This document shows positions 11,001-25,742 of a DNA stretch of 64,000 nucleotides, one piece after another. Under the pieces are notes generated by a model. That model made no database searches and had not been told where the DNA came from. It worked only from the letters and a program-made list of their open reading frames with translations. Origin of the DNA: Tetrahymena thermophila SB210 (lineage: Eukaryota; Ciliophora; Oligohymenophorea; Hymenostomatida; Tetrahymenidae); NCBI RefSeq assembly GCF_000189635.1, contig NW_002476567.1, positions 372,001 through 436,000 on the forward strand, in the 5' to 3' direction. The position numbers were made by a program, and so were the translations under genes. Position 1 is the stretch's first letter. Every line of letters begins with the position of its first letter.

Positions 11001-14000
11001 CAACATTAAAATATATTAAATTACTAAGGGTAGTAACTATTGAATTTCCCAGACACACCATCTAGCATTCCTGCTGGGCTGGTTCCTCTTTAGAGCATAA
11101 GGAATGGAGCCATAGATAATAATTAAAATATTAATTTTTAAGATAAAACCAAGCATTAAGTAGAAACTCACAATTTTGTTGCTCATTAAAATGAAACTGA
11201 AGTAATTTCTTAAAATAATAGCAATCTTTAGTAGTAGTAATAAGAAAATAAACAACAATAATAATATAATTTAAATTAAAAGCAAGCTTAAGAAAAGTAC
11301 AATGATAATTAAACAATATATAATGAAGTCCTGCACCCAGAAACTAGAGGCATGAATACAAGTATTGTTTAGATGTTTTAATAATCACAAATATAATAAT
11401 AGTAATTGTATCAAAATTAATTTGAAAAAGTAAATTCTGTGAATGATGGCTTTGATATAATGCAAATAGAATAGAGTGAACGAGTAGAATAAGGATAGTC
11501 TCCCTAAGATCATGTTTAGTTTTATATTTAAAAATCTGTTTATGCTGGATAAAATTAAAATGAAAGAAATAAACCAACAATAAATCCAAACATTCAAGGA
11601 AATATCAATTAAATTGCAAATAAAAATGATCAACAGTCAATTTAACAGTAAACAAAAAATATTGATCAACCCTCTACTCTGTTTTCTTAAATAAAATTTA
11701 ATATTTGCAAGCCTTTGTAAGGTCTTAAAGGCGAAACACACGATCTTTTATCTTAAGACGATTTATCGAAATCAAATATAGCTGCTGCAACTAATAAGCA
11801 TATAAATAATTACAACAGTAACCAAGTTGAGTAGAGTTAATTTGCTAAAGAATTTTAGAATAATTAATAACCAGAGTTATTGAATTAGACCAGCAATTCA
11901 CCAAAGAAGTCAGAGGAGCCTTCTTCTCCAGATAAACAACAAAATATTATTGATGTGAATTTAAATACAATTCTTACAACCTAAAATAATACAAAAAAAT
12001 CCAATGAAATAAACTTAAATACTGTTCATATCCCTACTGATAAGATGCTACATGATGACTATATGGACGAATTCGATAAGGGAATATAAAATACAGAAGA
12101 GTTCGGTGACCATGAGGAAGAAGAAGACCATAAAAAAGTTAACGATGATAGACTTCGCTTTTAACAGTACAGCGGACATAACCTAGGTAATAAAGAAAAC
12201 TTTATTAATTTTAAAAGAAAACAAAAACAAAATTATTTATTAAATAATCAGGTGATAGACCAACTTAAATAGACAATACCGATATTGAAGGTGAGTTTCA
12301 AGGAGAACTACAAAAAAATATTTTAAAAAATAATGATTATGTTATTATTCCTGAGAAAGCTTGGGAAAAATTATTTTCTTGGTACTCAGGTGGACCAACA
12401 TTTAAAAGGAAGAGAATAGTCGATATTCAAAAGAATTATAAAACTGTAGAGCTATATCCACCACTTGTGATTGGATACAAATGTAAAAAAGCATATTTAT
12501 TATTCAAAAAATAGTAAAAGAAAATTAATAAAAATAAAATAGGTCGTAAAAATGGTGAAATTAATTATGACACTAGGTAAGAGTTAATGGTGAGTAGTTG
12601 GAAAACTTTAAAAGAAGTTATGAAAAAATTTTAAAAATACTTTAAAAGTGAAAAGTAAGAAGACATACTTTACTATAAAAAAATGGGCTCTTATTGGAAT
12701 AAGGCTACTGACCTAGATAAAACAATGATAGTAGATTTGTAAATTGAAAGTGGAACTATCTTTTTGTTTCTTAATAAGGCAATAGAGGAGAAATTTTTGG
12801 AAAAATAAAAGATGAAAAGTTAAATAAAAGGGGGAATCAATACCTTTACAGAAATCTTAGATACTTATGAAGTCGGAGATCGCATCTGTGTGTTTCATCC
12901 ATCAGAGAGAATAGAAAAAAAAGGTTATATATTCTCAATAAAGTAATTTCTTTGATTGAAATATTTTTGAAAATTTAAATTTATGGAAAAATTATTTTAT
13001 GTTTCAAAAAACAAACAGCTTTTCTTATAAAAATAAAGGAGAAACTTTAAAATTTTAAAAATACATTTATAAATTTTATTTTTTAATTATTTGATTAATT
13101 TTATTGATAATTTTTTGAATAATAAAAAGGAATGATACCATTTAAATACATTTCAAAAGAGAATCATACAGAAATGATATAATATTTGAGAAGAAAAAAT
13201 TAGAAAATTATTTGAAGTAAGAGAGTAACTAAGTTTCTTAATTGAATATTGACTAAAGCATGACTCATTTAAATAATCATATTAAATACAATCCCAAGAT
13301 GATAGGTTTAGCTAATTTAGGCAACACCTGCTTTATTAATTGTATCATTTAATTTTTGGTTCACACTCCTTTTTTTAGATAATATTTGCTTGATGAGATT
13401 TATCGTGATTCTATAAAAGAAAATATTATTGTAAACTAGTCTTAGAATCCATAGACTGTAGTAGCAGCAGCTAATTCAGTTGCAGGAAATTTTAACAACT
13501 AGGCTATAGCAAATGTAAATTCTGTTATTTCAAATAACAACCCCTCAAACATATATAAAGATCAATAGCCTTAAAATTAAGGAAATTCACAAGAATAATA
13601 AATTTCTCTTATTCATGAGCTTTCACAGCTTGCAAAGTACTTGAAATAAAAGCCTTATAATGATATTTATGATCCAGTTAAGCCAGAAAGCTTGAAAAAG
13701 TCTATTGATAAATTAATGCCTAATTTTTCAGGCCATGAATAGCATGATGCTTAAGAATTTTTGTAGGGATTTTTAGATAAACTAAATGATGAAATCAAAA
13801 TAAAAAAACTAGTTAATATAAACAAACCTGACGAAACTAATAATAGTGTATCAAACACTGCAACTAATGCATTAGCTAATTAAAATACTGCTAAACAAAA
13901 TACAAGGACCATTTCAAATAGCAATACTCAACCACTATAGTTATAAAAGAATTCTTTTTCTAATAATAAAGATATAACTAGTTTAGTTAAATAAACACTA

Positions 14001-17000
14001 TCTAAATACGTCTATGAAGAAAATTTAACTTCTCAGCCTCCATAATTTCCTCCTGAACCTATTTCTAATCTACCTTTACAGCCAGCAGTCTCTTCTCAAA
14101 TGCAAACAGATTAGATAATTGAAACAAATCAAAATAACAAAAGAGAGTCTGGGGATAAATTAGAAAATTAATAAAATACAAAACCTTAGTAAGTGTTTTA
14201 AGAATTTTCAATTATCAAAGATGTATATATGGGATAGACAATCAATACGATTTAATGCTCTGTATGTGGAAACGTCAATCACAAATATGAGGATTTTTTC
14301 ACAATCTCCTTACCTTTACCTATCAAAGTAAATTAATTTATTTTTAGATCTCTTTTTAAATTGATAAATAAAAAACAATTTAAGTTTAATTTATTTATTT
14401 ACTTTGCAAAAAAAGAATGAGGTACTCTATGAAGTTACTTATGTACCTAGAATAAATAAGGGAATAATGAAGCCTATAAAAAAATATGGTATAAAATTAC
14501 ATCGCTCAGCTACATATGCTGATTTTTAGTAAGCATTTTACAAAACTTCAAGGATAAATCCATAAACAGTTGTTTTTGCAGAAATATGTAAAAACTATAA
14601 CTTCAAAAATTTGTATCTCATTGATCCAAGTATTCCAATGAGAAATTTAGGTAACTTGTTTATTTTCTAGATTAATTTTTGTTACGCTTTCTAAAATTTT
14701 AGGTATTAGAAGTAATGATGAAATTACAGCTTTTGAAGTTATTAATACTAATTAATTGTTAGAGGAAGAAACAAAATCGCTATATCCTCATAACTACACT
14801 ATTCACTCATAGAATAAAAATATCAAAGAAGGTGATTTCGTTGATTATAATTATTAATCTAATGGATTTAATTTATGGATGCATGGCTAAATAGAAAGGA
14901 TAACCTTTGCTGAATAAAAAAATGAATAAATAGTCTAACTTAGATTACTTGATGAAAATTTGGTAATATTATTTATTTTTTTCAATAATTAAAAATAATT
15001 AAATTTATTTTTTACAAAATCTAGAAATAGTTTAATCATCTGTACAAATTTAAAAGCGAGCAAAAAAGGATTATGCCTTTTAGGACTTAGATACCATTTT
15101 ATCCAAATTAAAAGGGATATGTTGTATTTCTTGTAAACAGAAGGAAAATGAATAACATGATAGAGAGATTTGGAATTCCTCTATGTATTATTATACCAGG
15201 CTGGCTCACTTGGAAAGAGTTACATCTTTTGGTTTTCAGCTAAGTTAAAAGATGCATTGACTTTGTAATTTTAAATTAAGCTTTATGATTTAATAGATAT
15301 ATTTACAATATTTATAATTAAAAGAATTACTTGATCAAAAAGTACTAAACAACAGCTAAAGCTTAAACTAAACAAAAAATAAAATCAGCTAAGACTTAAG
15401 GTTATACTTAATTAGGAGGAGAATTAGAAGAAATAGATTTCAATAATGCTGCTCAAACTTATTAAAACGATGACTACAGGACTAAGGAAAAGACCCACCA
15501 AGAGCAATTATAATATGTCAGAGAGTACAGATAAAAAGCCCCTTCTTTTCATGGATTTGGAGAAGATTAATTTTAAGGTAATTAGATTAATTAAGATGAC
15601 GAGTACATAAGAAACAGAAAATCTCTAGTCAACTAAACGGATGCTTACAGAATTTCAAGTAAATCACCAATAAAAAACAAGCAATAAAAAGATGAAGAGC
15701 CACCTTAACTTCGTCCAACAATCTCTGATTACTAAAATATATATAAAGCTAACACTAGTACTTTTATTCATCAGTACTAGGAAAACCTTTAATCAAATGG
15801 GTATTCCAATTAAAATCAAGATGGAAATACAAATTCTTAATAAAACAACTTAAAAAATACAATTAAATAATCTGTAAATTTAGAAAAAAATTAAAAGTTT
15901 GAAAGCCATGCATAAAAAAGCTAGTAATATTAAAACCTAGATGAATACTACTCAGCTTTTAATGGAGAAATAAAGGATTCAATAGACTTCTTATAATGTA
16001 AATATTATTCTTAAAACAAATTAAAAGTTTTAATTTCAACTAAAATAAAAGCGAGTTATTTCCCTTATAGATTAAGAGTAATTGATTCAGTCACTTAAAG
16101 ATGTGTAATTTGTGATCTTCCTTTAATTCCTGATATCACCTAAAAGGAGAGTTGTTAAGGCTGTGAACCTGGGCTTATAGAAAGACCAATATTTTGGGAT
16201 ATAAAATAACTTGCCTTAGTTTTTGCTATTGATTGGAAAGACTCGCTTAGTTTCAATCCCTCAAGCATGGTACCTTAAAATGATGAAAGGTAACTTTGAA
16301 TTAATACTAAAAAAAATATTGAATAATTTTAATTAAATTTTTTAGCTACATCGATCTAAAAAAATAAAAGAATGAAATAAAAATGGGAATACCAATTTAA
16401 TCTTGCTTCGATCTATTCTCTGCTTAGGTAATTAATTAATTAATACATTAATTTTATTAAAATTTAAGTAATATTTTAAAATAGGAAAAAGTATAATTAG
16501 AATGTGATGTCTGTAAAGTTAACTAAATATAAACTACTATGCATCTACTTAATAAACTGCCTAATATTTTAATAGTATTTAATTATTTCATATTAAATTT
16601 ATTTTAAAAGTTTTATTTAATATCATAAAAGATACATCTTAGCCGATTCTAATATCAAAATGGTTTGTTTGAAAAAATTGATGATTTAGTTAATTTCCCA
16701 TTGAAGAAGCTAGATTTATCGAAATGGGTTTTCAAAGATAACAAATTATAATAAGCTCAATAAAATTCAAAATAAATATAAGATAATCAAAATGAAATTT
16801 ATGATTTGTTTGCAGTTGTGAATCACCTTGGTAACGGCCATGGAGGTAAAAAATAAAGCTTAGCAGTAAAAATATTTTAAAAAACGTATTTTAAATTAAA
16901 TAGGTCACTACACTAGCTTTGTTAATATAAAAGAAGATGGATCTGAGCTTAAAGATTGCTGGGTAAATTTTGATGATGAATAAGTAAATTATATAAATTA

Positions 17001-17094
17001 AGAAGAAGTTTTATCAAACAAAGGATATCTCCTCATATATAAAAAGAAATTTTCTACTTCTGCAATAGTAAATCTAACATATAAAAAGCTTTGA
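8083..17094 (+). CDS. giant EF-hand/DUSP ubiquitin carboxyl-terminal hydrolase, USP32-like
   Basis: Deubiquitinating cysteine protease with the USP32 domain order, about 2,560 residues. It starts MGNFC, a likely N-myristoylation/palmitoylation signal. EF-hands follow: DRDRNGKVDFKEF (about residue 73), DTDSDKYLSRNEV (about 110), and a weaker one before them. The DUSP domain begins at VVSWKWWFMWRYYINY (about 375) and resumes at PTQIDNTDI, with YVIIPEKAWEKLFSWYSGG (about 1,175), after a Q/N-rich insert. The catalytic domain has GLANLGNTCFIN (Cys box, about 1,469), GHEQHDAQEFL, CxxC pairs (CSVCGN, CDVCKVNQ), IHLSRFQYQNG and GGHYTSF (His box), then WVNFDDEQV. Exons: 8083-8098 (or longer), 8239-8414, 8862-12186, 12252-12942, 13130-14327, 14416-14650, 14703-14962, 15025-15264, 15325-16289, 16346-16427, 16485-16574, 16632-16845, 16904-17094. 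All catalytic residues are present, so it is probably active. The first exon boundary is uncertain. Confidence 0.9.
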
Positions 17095-18561: not shown

Positions 18562-21500
18562 ATGACATCCAAAGAAGAAATTCAAAGTTAAATTTTAACA
18601 TTATGTGAATCTTAAGATAGTTTTGATGCATATTATGAAGAGATAGAAGAATAAATTCTACAAAAAAAAGACTCGTAATTTATTTTATTTGTTAAAATGC
18701 TTTCATTTAAAAAAAATGATAATCATAACTATAGCTTAAAGATTTAATTAATTGATTGATTGTTATAAATCATTTTAATATATTATATGTAAAAAGAAAT
18801 TTGGTTAAAGCAATAGTACAGCTAACGACTTAAGTACTTGAGTAAAATAAGAAGGAACCTATTTAGCAATTTTTACTTTTGCTCGTAATAAATAAAACAT
18901 ATTTATTTATAAATTGTTTAGATGAATTAATTTTAAATATTAAATTTATATACAGCTCATTTAGAAAACAGTTGTTAAGAAGTCTAATGAAATGATTAAC
19001 TAAGTGCATAACACATCAGCACTATTAAAAGTACTAGAAAAAATTGCTAAACATGAAGCTAGAAGCTCTGATCCTAATCGTGGAGCTTCTTATTTTCCAA
19101 GAGGTATATATAAATATAAATATTAAGGCGAATTACATATTTTAATTTAATGCATGAAAACTAAAAAAAGATCCTGAAGTAGGTAAAAAGTTCTTAATTT
19201 TAGTGCTTGAATTCCTTTACAAGTCAGCTAAATCATTTTCTTAGGATGCTAAAAAAAATCCTACTTAGTTTGCATTAATTTATAATAGACTGCTAGAAGA
19301 AGGGGTAACATTTCCTCAAGAACCTTTAACCTTTTATGAAACGAAGAAAAAGAAAAATGCCTCTTAATCTCAAAATGCACCTTAACAATCTGCAGTTTCT
19401 AAAAGAGATAAAAGTCCAGCACCAGAAACTTAAACTGCTTAAGGAGTTAACTAAAAAACATCTAAAAATATATAAATTTCAAGTATTTATTTATTTATAA
19501 TATTTATTAATTACTAATTAATGTATCTTATTTAAAGATAAGATTTTTGATGATGTACAAGCAAGCATTAGCACTTTGTTGTATATTTTTTCGAATTTAG
19601 ATGACATTGATTAAGACACAAAAGATGGTAAGATTTTTATTTTATTAAAAAATGTTTATTTATTATAAAATTGTTTTATTAGAAATTGAAAACTAATATA
19701 AGAGATTCCAAAAACAAATTTAGTAAATAAATTCTATGCTTGAGGAGGCAGATTTTGATGAGGAATCATTTAACAAAATGTTAACTTTCTCAGATTTAAT
19801 GAATCAATTTATCTAGTAGGTTGAGAAACTTCAAAAAAATAAGTATAATAATAGCTCTGTAATAGAATTCAAGTAATGGTTATTCACTTACGAGCTTCCA
19901 TTTTAATTAGAATAAGAATAATTTGAAAATGACTAAATGAATCAATAAATGAAAAACCAAGTACAATAATAAAACTAATAGCAGTAACCTGATAATAAAA
20001 GCAAGTTTTAAGATAGCAAACCATAAGGAAACTTTGAAGAAAATAAATTTGATGCCCATAAAGATGATAATTTTGATTTCAATTAGTTTGGGTCTTAACC
20101 TGTAGCTCACTAAGGGAATCAAAATAATAATGAGGACTTGTTCGGTACCTTTACAAATAATCAAATGAAGGATTTATAAAATAAGAATTAAGGTTAATAA
20201 GGTTAGTTTTAATCTCATTTTGATGACTTTGAATAATTTGGAAGTAACTTTTAGAACCTAAATAAGAAGAATGAGGAATAAGAAAATCAATCTAAGCTGC
20301 AACAAGAAGAATTAGACAGACAATATTAAAAATAGAAAGAATTAGAAAAATAATAGTAACTTGAGAGGGAATAAGAAGAAGAAAGAAAAAAATAGGCAGA
20401 ATTACTTAGGAAGGAGTAGGAGGAATTGAAAAAAAGAGATTAAGAAGAAAAAATTAGAAAATAAAAAGAATAATAAGAAGAGTAAGAAAGACAAGCCAAA
20501 TTAAGAAGACAACAAGAAGAAGACGAGGAACAAGAAAGAATGTTGCAATAGTAACTTTATGAAGAGGAGTAGGAGCGCTTAAGATTGGAACACGAATAAT
20601 AATAGTTGGCTGAAGAATAAAGAAGATAAAAAATGATTAAATAATAGTAAGAGGAGCAAGAAAGACAAAGAAGGCTCTTGGAAGAATAGTAGAGAGAGGA
20701 TGAATAATAATAAGAAGAGTCAAAATAAATAGAAAGTTTAAACAATCCATTCAATTAAAAGTCTAATTTTTATTTTAACAGTAATGATTAGTACAATAGA
20801 GACTCCTTTGGAGCTCAAAATCAAGGTTACTTTTTCAATTCACAAACATAATAAGAATAAAATAAAAACCAGAAAAGCAATGACAATAACTATTCAGTTA
20901 CTGTGAATGATAATAATGTTTACACAAGCAAAGCAAATAATAACTTAAACAATAATACGAATTCTAATGTAAATAACAGCGGTCGTCCTCCAGCATTCCC
21001 TTCTTAATAAAAATAAAATTAGGATCCAAAGATATCTAAAATAGAGTCTGCATTTGGAAGCTCAAATTAAAAATTTTCAGTAAAAAATTATATTATTTTT
21101 GGTATATTTTTAAATCATATTAAAATTATTTAAAAGTTTGGTCCTGATTCTAAAAATAACTAAGCAAGCTAATCAAATAGAAATAATAATTTGAATGTCT
21201 AAAATGAAGGTTAAATTAAAAATTTTATTTTACTAAAATAAACATTTTTTTATTAAAAGATAACAGGACTGAAATGTCATTCAACGAACAATTCTCTGTT
21301 TCAAGTAATTTTAAATATAAAAACTTTAAAATTTTTAATAAATAGCTAATGATTGGAGATATTTTGTGTATTTCTAGATAAATGCTAAATAAAGCAAAAA
21401 TAAATTAAATTAAAAATAAACAAATCATGTTTTAACAATTGATTAAATTTAATTTAATTTTAAAGCAAATTAATTTGTTAAAATTATAAAAAATTATTGT

Positions 21501-22708
21501 AAAATCTCAATATATTTTTTTTTAATTTAGAATATTATTTAAAATCTGATTTTACAATTTAGAACTATTTTTTTTAAAAATATAAAATTTAAGAAAATAA
21601 AAACATTTGATTTAAAATTTAACTTACAATTAAAAAATTAGGTTAATAAATCTATTTTATAAAATTTTATTTCAATAGATATTTCTGTTGCTGGAGGATA
21701 TAATTAATATGATTTCCCTATGAAACATATCAAACTAATAGATAATAAAGTTTATAAAGGTTAAGAAGTTCCAGTAGTTAACAGCATAGAATAAACACTT
21801 AAGTAATATTAGTTAAGCCCATAAAATGTAAGGAGATTTAAATTATCAAACTTGAAGAGAAAAAATAATCTTTATGAAAATTCCTAAATTCAATTTGGTT
21901 GCATTTCTGACTTAATATTCGATTATATAAATTCATAAAATTACTTAAAGTTGACCATATTTATTGGAAACAAAACAAGGCTTCCTATCAGGAATATAAA
22001 AATTGAATTTGATGGAGATGAAAGTAAATTTTATTATTCTTTTACATAATTTTCACCATTAATTAATAGATTTATTTATTTAAAAATATTAATGAATTAA
22101 TTAATACTAATAATAATAATAATGTAGGTTCATATATTTATGTTAAGCAAGAAAAAGTTATAGACTTTATTCCTGCTAAAACTTAAGAAAAATTTGAGTT
22201 GATAGTTGGATATAAAGATGTGCCTTTTTCCATGGTTAATTTGGATCTGACTGCTGATTTCGGAGAAATAGAAGAAAGCTAAACAATTGAAACAAGTGTT
22301 TTTCTTCCTAATCTCTTGACAAAATATATTTAATTTAAAGATTTAGACAGTTAAGCATTTCATTCAAAATGGAGAGATCTTCGAAGCCACATTTTAAGAA
22401 CAGATATTTTTCCTGTTTCTAAGCAGATCATTAAGACTCCTGCTTACTTCAGACGCTTTTTCACTAAAGTTTTAGAAATAACTTCGTTAGAAAATTTTGT
22501 ACTTCAGTAAAATAGTAATCAGTATGATATTAAATATTATAAGCTTGGCGCTTTAATTGAGTTGGCTGATTCTGAGAGCGAGTTTTTAATTAAATTCAAT
22601 GTACGTCCTGATAATACACTTTGTATTCAAATAATTTCATTAAATGAAGCATATTAATCTACTGCTGCTACTCTTCTCTAACACTTAAGATTTTTGTTAT
22701 AAGCATGA
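18562..22708 (+). CDS. GGA-like clathrin adaptor: VHS + GAT-like + Q/E hinge + alpha-adaptin-type ear
   Basis: Predicted monomeric clathrin/cargo adaptor, 1,063 residues. The N-terminal helical region (about 20-162) resembles a VHS domain and ends FALIYNRLLEEGVTFP, the usual VHS finish. Residues about 221-305 look like a GAT three-helix bundle (IFDDVQASISTLLYIFSNL, ending KMLTFSDLMNQFIQQVEKL). The hinge carries acidic-Phe motifs (DLFGTF, NFDFNQFG, DDFEQFG) that could bind adaptor ears, then a Q/E/R coiled coil (about 446-602). Residues about 755-1,063 match a two-part adaptin appendage, with FLPNLLTKYIQF before the platform half (HSKWRDLRSHIL). Exons: 18562-18674, 18797-18884, 18956-19103, 19171-19482, 19538-19627, 19683-21079, 21137-21209, 21260-21304, 21679-22023, 22128-22708. 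All junction phases agree. VHS and GAT bind sorting signals and ubiquitin in known families; cargo here is unknown. Confidence 0.8.
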
Positions 22709-23594: not shown

Positions 23595-25742
23595 ATGAAA
23601 AGTGAACACTAAACTGAAATTTGTTAAATTAGATAGCTACTTTTAAAAGAAAAGAATTTAGTTATTACAAATCGAAATTTAAAAGGGCCATTAACTTAGA
23701 GCTATATTTTTGTTGAAGAGGATAATAACACTTTCATTAAATATGCTTTGAAGATTTAAAACATTGCAGTTGAAGGAAGTGGAGAAATCGATCAACTCAA
23801 GTTATTGAAATGCAAAAATGGAGTTTAATTTATTAAAGATTGTTGCCACTAAAGTATTGGGGAAGTCGTAGATGAATTTGTTATAGAAAAATATCATTTT
23901 ACTTAGTTTTAAGATATATTTTGCTCTCTTAATGATTGGGTTAGATAAAATTAAGGCAGAAAAATTTCTGACTATAAATTTGTATCATTTGCTGGTAAAA
24001 TTCTAGATGGACTAGAATTTATTCATGAAAAACAATGTTTTTTGAAAGACATTAGCTTGGATACTCTCTTAATCAATAAAGATGATGAGGTTAAGATTTG
24101 TAGTGTGTGTTAAGATTCATCAGATTTAATTAGTCTTCAAAATCAAAGCTAGAATTTTATTCAATCTCTCCCTTACAAGCCTCCTGAATACATAGAAAAA
24201 ATCTATAATAAAGAGAGCTATAATTATACAAAATAAGGAGACATTTGGTCATATGGAGCTTGCTTATCTTTTCTAGGAGGGGGATAAATTAAATAAGTTT
24301 AGAAAAATAAAAATGAATCGTAATTTATGATAACATACTGTCATAACATTTCTAAAAAATCAAATGAGTTTGTAAAATTCATATTAAATATAGATCCTTT
24401 AAAAAGACCAAATTTAAGAGAGATTAGAGACAAATTAAATTCATTTTTTTAAAACAGCATCCAAAAAGCTATTATAAGCACAGGATCAGAATTAACAAAT
24501 ATACAAGAAGAAGATGAATAAATTATTATTTAAATGGAATAAAATAGCACGAAAAATATCTAAGTTTTGTCTTTAATGAAATGCATTTAAGAAATATTAA
24601 CTTAGAAAGAAATAAGATCACCCTACAAAAAGCTATAAGTACACCTTATATATTTTAAAATAATATGTATTATCTCATTGGGATTAGCTATTGCACTTAC
24701 TTCATTAAAAGATGCAGAAATTTTCCTAATATCTCTAGCCATTTAATTCCTTTTAACTATTATTTAATTTATTTAAGATAAGACAAACTCAATTGGTTAA
24801 TTTTCAATTATTAACTTTTTTTAGAGTATTGTTGAGTTATCTACACTTATCTTTACAACCTCAGATTATTAAGAAATAAACATACTTTATTCATTATTTG
24901 TTCTGCTATAGCAAATCCAAAACTTTTTACCATATTTATAAAGCTTACAAGACCCTAGCTAAAATCAAAATAATAACTAAATCTAAAATTAGAATGAAGC
25001 TCAAAACAAATAAAATGGTGAATTTAGTTATGCCTTCTTTATTATCTTTAACTGCATTCCAATCTTTATTTGTATAAGCTTGGCAAATGATTAAAATTTA
25101 AAAATAGTATCAACTATAAGACTGATAGTATTCTACTTAGCTTTCATCTCAATCTAAGTTTAAATCAAATATAAGACTTAATTCATCAAATCTACTCCTT
25201 AATTTGACTCTATGATTAGATTTTTTTACATATCCTTAAATATCCTAGATTTCTTTATATTCTTTTAAAATTTTACTTAAGTCTCAGATTTTATCTTGGC
25301 TTTTTTCTGCTTAGCTAACACAATATTTATTGGTTTTATTGCCTCAAAGATATTTTCTAATATTTATTTAGCTGGCTAATTACTTTACACATTTGCTTCT
25401 GTTTCTTCATTTATAGCTCAATAAGCTACATAGTAAATATAAATTGAATGCTATTTGATATTTGGTTTATCAACTCTTATTCAGTTTATCTCCATGGCTA
25501 TTTCAATAAAATAGTATAAATTCAAAACAATAGAAAAATGGATTCAAATAGCTTTATTTTTAATTTATATCACTTTATTCTCAATGCTATTGAACCAATC
25601 ATTATAAGTGCAATTTATTAAAGGAAGAAACTATGGAATAGCTTTCTTTTCTTGTTTAGTCTTTCTTGCAAAGTTTGCATTGAAAAATCTGCAAACAGGC
25701 AAATAAAAGTATAAAAATAATCACTCAATCTCATCAAATTGA
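23595..25742 (+). CDS. pseudokinase fused to a multi-pass membrane domain
   Basis: Intronless, 715 residues, ATG to TGA. The first ~290 residues have a protein-kinase fold pattern: FAGKILDGLEFIHEKQCFLK before the catalytic loop, LLINKDDEVKICSV after it, YKPPEYIEKIY (APE-like), GDIWSYGACLSFLGGG (subdomain IX) and NIDPLKRPNLREI (subdomain XI with its Arg). The catalytic loop reads FLKDISLDTLLI instead of HRDLKxxN, and the DFG position reads CSV. It therefore lacks the catalytic Asp/Asn pattern and the Mg-binding Asp and is probably inactive. From about residue 353 to 698 there are 10-12 hydrophobic segments (for example IICIISLGLAIALTSL, FILAFFCLANTIFIGFIAS, LIFGLSTLIQFISMAISI), broken by an NQ-rich loop. 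The product should be an integral membrane protein with a cytosolic kinase-like head. The membrane family is not recognised. Confidence 0.8.

Follow-up and report, generated by a model that had tools for sequence, protein, structure and literature searches.

The window analysed here is a stretch of 64,000 nucleotides of the Tetrahymena thermophila SB210 genome, namely positions 372001-436000 of contig C13 (NW_002476567.1), one of the 445 contigs (101 Mb) that were searched. On its forward strand lies a gene of ten exons with the following composition.

18562..22708, + strand: whole gene, 10 exons, ciliate code 6, 1060 aa, TGA stop
18562-18690, 18822-18884, 18956-19103, 19171-19482, 19538-19627 and 19683-21079, + strand: exons 1-6 of the gene model
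21079/21137, 21209/21260 and 21304/21679, + strand: later exon junctions of the gene model
18574..19325, + strand: putative VHS-like N-terminal domain, aa ~5-165, exons 1-4, from the family profile and shuffles
19476..19840, + strand: GAT-like helical segment, aa ~216-300, across the end of exon 4, exon 19538-19627 and the start of exon 19683-21079
20261..20740, + strand: Q/E/K/R-rich hinge stretch, probable coiled coil or long helix, aa 441-600, from composition
20744..20752, + strand: NPF motif, aa 602-604, from a pattern search
21834..22023, + strand: first half of the sandwich of an alpha-type ear, aa 805-867, with F847 and G849 (mouse F740 and G742)
22128..22708, + strand: remaining sandwich and platform region of the alpha-type ear, aa 868-1060, with Q887 (mouse Q782) and W949 (mouse W840; 22370-22372)

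Upstream on the same strand we found a ubiquitin-specific protease gene (13299-17094, +), three pieces of which match Pfam UCH (7.2e-12, 1.4e-13 and 1.9e-7). For the K13 compartment of Plasmodium, PMC10718435 reports a ubiquitin protease with a VHS domain, UBP1; the side-by-side placement of an adaptor gene and a ubiquitin protease gene may be due to chance. At 23595-25742 (+) a protein kinase domain (6.1e-17) is followed by a long hydrophobic tail, probably multi-spanning.

The window is A+T-rich, with frames that stay open if glutamine is assigned to TAA and TAG. The gene model, built from sequence, uses GT..AG introns whose splice sites were picked by rule and frame; its nine introns have an A+T content of 82-92%, against 67-78% in the exons. 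A coding sequence at 18562..22708 had been proposed in an earlier sequence-only reading, and the code 6 translation in ten exons bears it out; the residue numbering of that reading implied 1063 aa, three more than the present model gives. A simple gene finder recovered six of the nine introns exactly. This agreement is not independent, since the training set, composed of long open frames, also held the coding sequence of the gene under study. The gene finder missed the first two introns, read through 21080-21136 and overran the stop into the next gene. Given a model built by rule and frame, one may ask whether two adjoining genes, one for a VHS-GAT protein and one for a separate ear protein, have been wrongly merged. 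We regard this as very improbable: a single exon, 19683-21079, extends from the GAT-like segment to the end of the coiled coil, and two other loci, on contigs C209 and C160, likewise have head and ear on the same strand.

Sequence comparison confirms that the ear is of the AP-2 alpha type over the sandwich and into the beginning of the platform. Searched alone against the PDB, the window ear gave seven matches, six of them AP-2 alpha appendages (E 0.18-0.38) and the seventh a tenascin. A profile of six ears (the window and five paralogues from its own genome) gave eight, seven to AP-2 alpha (best 2e-10) and a lone non-alpha match to the GGA2 ear (0.16), with no beta appendage among them. In hhalign the ear profile scored 59.7 on the mouse alpha ear and 15.8 on the human beta2 ear, while 60 shuffles of the mouse alpha ear reached a maximum of 24.7; the beta2 score was compared with these alpha shuffles and falls within them. 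With no beta match in the PDB and a whole-ear beta score of this size, we disfavour a beta-type ear for the window protein as a whole; its last ~100 residues, taken alone, fit neither alpha nor beta. The Pfam family Alpha_adaptinC2 was found in three of the six family ears (best 1.4e-6) and on pieces of the window protein at 0.0097, short of the cut-off; up to E = 5 the full window protein had no Pfam match, and none of its pieces passed a cut-off.

The alpha alignment block runs from the sandwich through the first platform helix and ends just past the helix that carries W949. For the last ~100 residues, global-mode scores were 5.6 on alpha and 2.6 on beta, no better than shuffles (mean 3.3, maximum 11.6), and so this part matches neither platform by sequence; by eye, the spacing of the alpha platform is kept. 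AlphaFold models from single sequences (22130-22705 and 22295-22705) were poor and disagreed with each other (mean pLDDT 43.9 and 68.0), the latter consisting of helices only, unlike a platform. The proposed alpha-adaptin-type ear with platform is borne out for the sandwich and first platform helix and stays putative for the last ~100 residues. The claim of a longer ear of ~300 residues is not upheld, the alpha-homologous part (aa ~805-1060) comprising ~256 residues, about as many as the mouse alpha ear has.

The sandwich and platform positions that we compared in a MAFFT alignment of window and mouse alpha are, W840 apart, ones which we take to be pocket residues of the alpha ear. Three of the four sandwich positions are identical (F740, G742 and Q782) and the fourth differs (K727I). 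Six more positions were compared in the platform: F836 is unchanged, R905K is a conservative exchange, and F837H, E849R, R916I and R920N differ. Of the six paralogous ears, three have F at position F740 and the other three Y; G742 is retained in two, and Q782 and W840 in five each. W840 is itself named as a pocket residue in PMC5694535.

As to the N-terminal domain, Pfam gives no VHS match in the window protein, and the N-terminal 313 aa alone gave zero matches in the PDB. Among five family heads Pfam VHS was found in one (0.13) and is outscored by four unrelated Pfam families, each in one member. A first profile of these five heads placed the TOM1 VHS domain at the top of 78 PDB matches (0.012); most of the best 60 of the 78 were cytochrome c peroxidases, at 0.5-0.6. 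A second profile, composed of the four heads of the window, C389, C178 and C209, with the C209 head completed and the partial C160 row omitted, gave five matches, the TOM1 VHS domain first at 8.3e-4, followed by a glucanase (0.23), the plant entry 1vdy (0.26), presumably an ENTH/VHS domain, a designed protein (1.1) and GGA2 (1.3). The head scores, 27.9 on TOM1 VHS (38 columns) and 30.1 on GGA1 VHS (82 columns), were reached by none of 50 shuffles each, which amounts to modest support, shuffled sequences being no control for helical patterning. We therefore speak of a VHS-like head: the VHS domain of the earlier reading is seen by the family profile and the shuffles, not by Pfam in the window protein. 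The second profile finds the omitted C160 head at 1.7e-8. On C114 and C214 it gave 0.066 and 0.062, scarcely ahead of the 0.13 for an exon of the unrelated AP-2 alpha gene, and the heads at these two loci are weakly assigned, from position and by-eye likeness. The strong score of the C178 head is not independent, because C178 entered the profile by eye. Pfam VHS itself detects two loci, C91 and C309; at neither did the profile have a significant match.

The helical segment after the head is possibly a GAT domain. Pfam GAT scores 0.22 on the window protein, covering 72 of its 77 positions, but 11 other families rank above it, and no GAT occurs among the 19 PDB matches of the family profile. In shuffle tests the TOM1 score was reached by 5 of 50 and the GGA1 score by 0 of 50, each over 15 aligned columns. 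The GAT-like bundle read here earlier is accordingly kept as a label of resemblance, also with regard to the Arf-binding GAT of GGA adaptors. The Q/E/R-rich coiled-coil hinge proposed earlier fits the composition of aa 441-600, a stretch that contains 42 Q, 45 E, 18 K and 18 R but lacks both P and G. The acidic-Phe motifs attributed to the hinge come down to one DDF by pattern, other D/F-rich stretches being looser and picked by eye. NPF motifs, of which one follows the hinge stretch, are bound by EH domains. Neither a clathrin box, degenerate variants of which could escape, nor a GAE-type motif was found by pattern in the window protein.

With a VHS-like head, a hinge and a C-terminal ear in one chain, the protein resembles GGA adaptors, and a GGA at the trans-Golgi with a diverged gamma-type ear could be envisaged, the more so as the head scores on GGA1 VHS as well as on TOM1, and one GGA2 ear is retrieved by the six-ear profile. 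However, in that profile alpha appendages lead by nearly nine orders of magnitude, the ear has residues beyond the sandwich (~110 follow Trp949, too many for the GGA2 ear chain with its 123 residues), and pattern searches found neither of the two motifs named above. Since the ear is not gamma-type and no clathrin box turned up by pattern, we conclude that the window protein is not a GGA, and rejected a Golgi GGA as quite unlikely. The GGA-like label thus breaks down at the ear; what stands is a single-chain adaptor with the VHS-like part first and the ear last, the latter of alpha rather than gamma type. The head and helical segment also recall TOM1-like VHS-GAT proteins, from which the window protein differs in its C-terminal ear.

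The gene is not alone in its genome. Ear searches gave ten matches at six loci, the window included. Head and ear occur together at the window, C209 and C160 by search, at C178 by eye, and weakly at C114 and C214. On C209 (head 319051-319266, ear 316182-317086) and C160 they follow in head-to-ear order on one strand. Rough models of four ear paralogues (L023-L026, on C214, C160, C178 and C114) are longer than the window protein, at ~1250-2120 aa, and contain long stretches resembling coiled coil. A further locus (L027; C389, 1572-3509) has a VHS-like head (0.007) and a GAT-like segment in one exon, and no ear match at C389; like TOM1-like proteins it would lack an ear, either because it is truncated or because this family member has none.

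The ear type is that of AP-2 alpha, but the window protein has no adaptin trunk: Adaptin_N has 36 matches in the genome, none on C13, and by Pfam none in the window protein. AP-2 alpha is encoded by a separate gene on C86, with 4.2e-110 to AP-2 alpha versus 3.7e-53 to AP-1 gamma. Its tail is ear-like, all seven PDB matches being alpha appendages (0.068-1.4), and since the tail prefers alpha appendages we consider that this AP-2 alpha keeps an ear of its own. The C86 ear is not among the matches of the genome ear search, and its alignment with KAE-type ears spans only 39 columns. Pfam Alpha_adaptin_C found nothing in the genome, which does not show absence. Two further genes, L028 (C172) and L029 (C329), combine an adaptin trunk with an Alpha_adaptinC2 ear above the Pfam cut-off and look like two AP-1 gamma genes. 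Regarding possible partners, the EH search of the genome gave one match, an EF-hand kinase, and thus no Eps15-like partner was found. The model PF24981 has at least 100 matches in the genome; as a general kelch propeller model it is uninformative on K13. On viral contigs there were 11 pattern matches, none confirmed.

Which known protein does this arrangement resemble most? In Schmidt et al. (2023, PMC10718435), Plasmodium KIC4 is described with a VHS, a GAT and an appendage with a beta-type C-terminal subdomain, a layout said there to occur in no other protein by InterPro. The same text gives its Toxoplasma homologue, TgKAE, as essential and located at the micropore, while in P. falciparum a KIC4 truncation and knock-sideways are stated to show no endocytosis defect. 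According to Koreny et al. (2023, PMC10105704), the TgKAE ear binds Eps15L via WxxF and TgAP-2alpha does not; the AP-2alpha/KAE split is stated for all alveolates; dinoflagellates and chrompodellids have two KAE paralogues, the duplicate having been lost in apicomplexans; and K13 is apparently absent in ciliates. The suggestion that our protein has the layout of KIC4 agrees with both sources. Like KIC4 (VHS, GAT, ear) and KAE (TGME49_272600), it carries an AP-2-type C-terminal ear without adaptin trunk, and probable coiled-coil parts; the VHS of KIC4 would have its counterpart in the VHS-like head; as in KAE, the ear is of alpha type, and the WxxF site of the sandwich is largely kept. In contrast, the C-terminal subdomain of KIC4 is called beta-type by its authors, Tetrahymena has six ear loci versus two paralogues in dinoflagellates and chrompodellids, and ciliates apparently have no K13 (PMC10105704).

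We consider the window protein to be, with fair probability, a ciliate single-chain adaptor of the KAE/KIC4 kind, in which a VHS-like head is followed by a helical segment that may be GAT, by a long hinge rich in Q and E, and finally by an ear of AP-2 alpha type. Its putative orthology to KAE/KIC4 is based on layout and ear type. Kinship founded on these traits, the long branches of the ear tree and the beta-type subdomain described for KIC4 (PMC10718435) would also suit a convergent fusion, in which the union of an alpha ear with a VHS-like protein took place in ciliates separately from apicomplexan KAE/KIC4. We find this unlikely, given that the order of parts is that of KIC4, the ear type that of TgKAE, and the split is stated for all alveolates by Koreny et al. 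(PMC10105704). That alveolate-wide split is already in print; as far as we could read, including De Craene et al. (2012, PMC3473312), what is new is the VHS-to-ear layout in a ciliate and the presence of six ear loci in a genome whose AP-2 alpha has an ear as well. No title among the open-licence papers listed points to a VHS-to-ear protein from a ciliate, and searches of that literature gave nothing on ciliate clathrin/AP-2 adaptors at parasomal sacs.

The adaptor of the KAE/KIC4 kind that we favour is likely an endocytic hub recruiting WxxF partners, and we infer that it acts in endocytosis instead of at the Golgi. VHS and GAT proteins hold to membranes through cargo, lipid or ubiquitin, and by analogy the head and helical segment would hold the protein at the membrane in one of these ways. 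The hinge, judging from its composition, might allow self-association or reaching out. The sandwich site of the ear, with three of four positions as in mouse alpha, would recruit WxxF accessory proteins as the TgKAE ear does. The adaptor would work alongside AP-2, whose ear-bearing alpha subunit has its separate gene. Given six ear loci, the family members may serve different sites, conceivably the parasomal sacs, the oral region and the contractile vacuole.

KAE and KIC4 are found at the pore where apicomplexan parasites (malaria, Toxoplasma) take up host material. The C-terminal part of KIC4 is held to be beta-type in one paper and that of its Toxoplasma homologue alpha-type in another; the ciliate ear, on sequence grounds, adds support for the alpha reading of the KAE/KIC4-type ear, which may be the better one. 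As a possible, still tentative scenario, we put forward that an adaptor running from VHS to alpha ear predates the alveolate split and K13, that ciliates enlarged it into a family of at least six members differing in their hinges, around which endocytic or oral membrane sites were built with AP-2 and without K13, and that the K13 complex was a later addition in malaria parasites. A free-living ciliate with several such adaptors and apparently no K13 would allow the function of the adaptor itself to be studied separately from K13.
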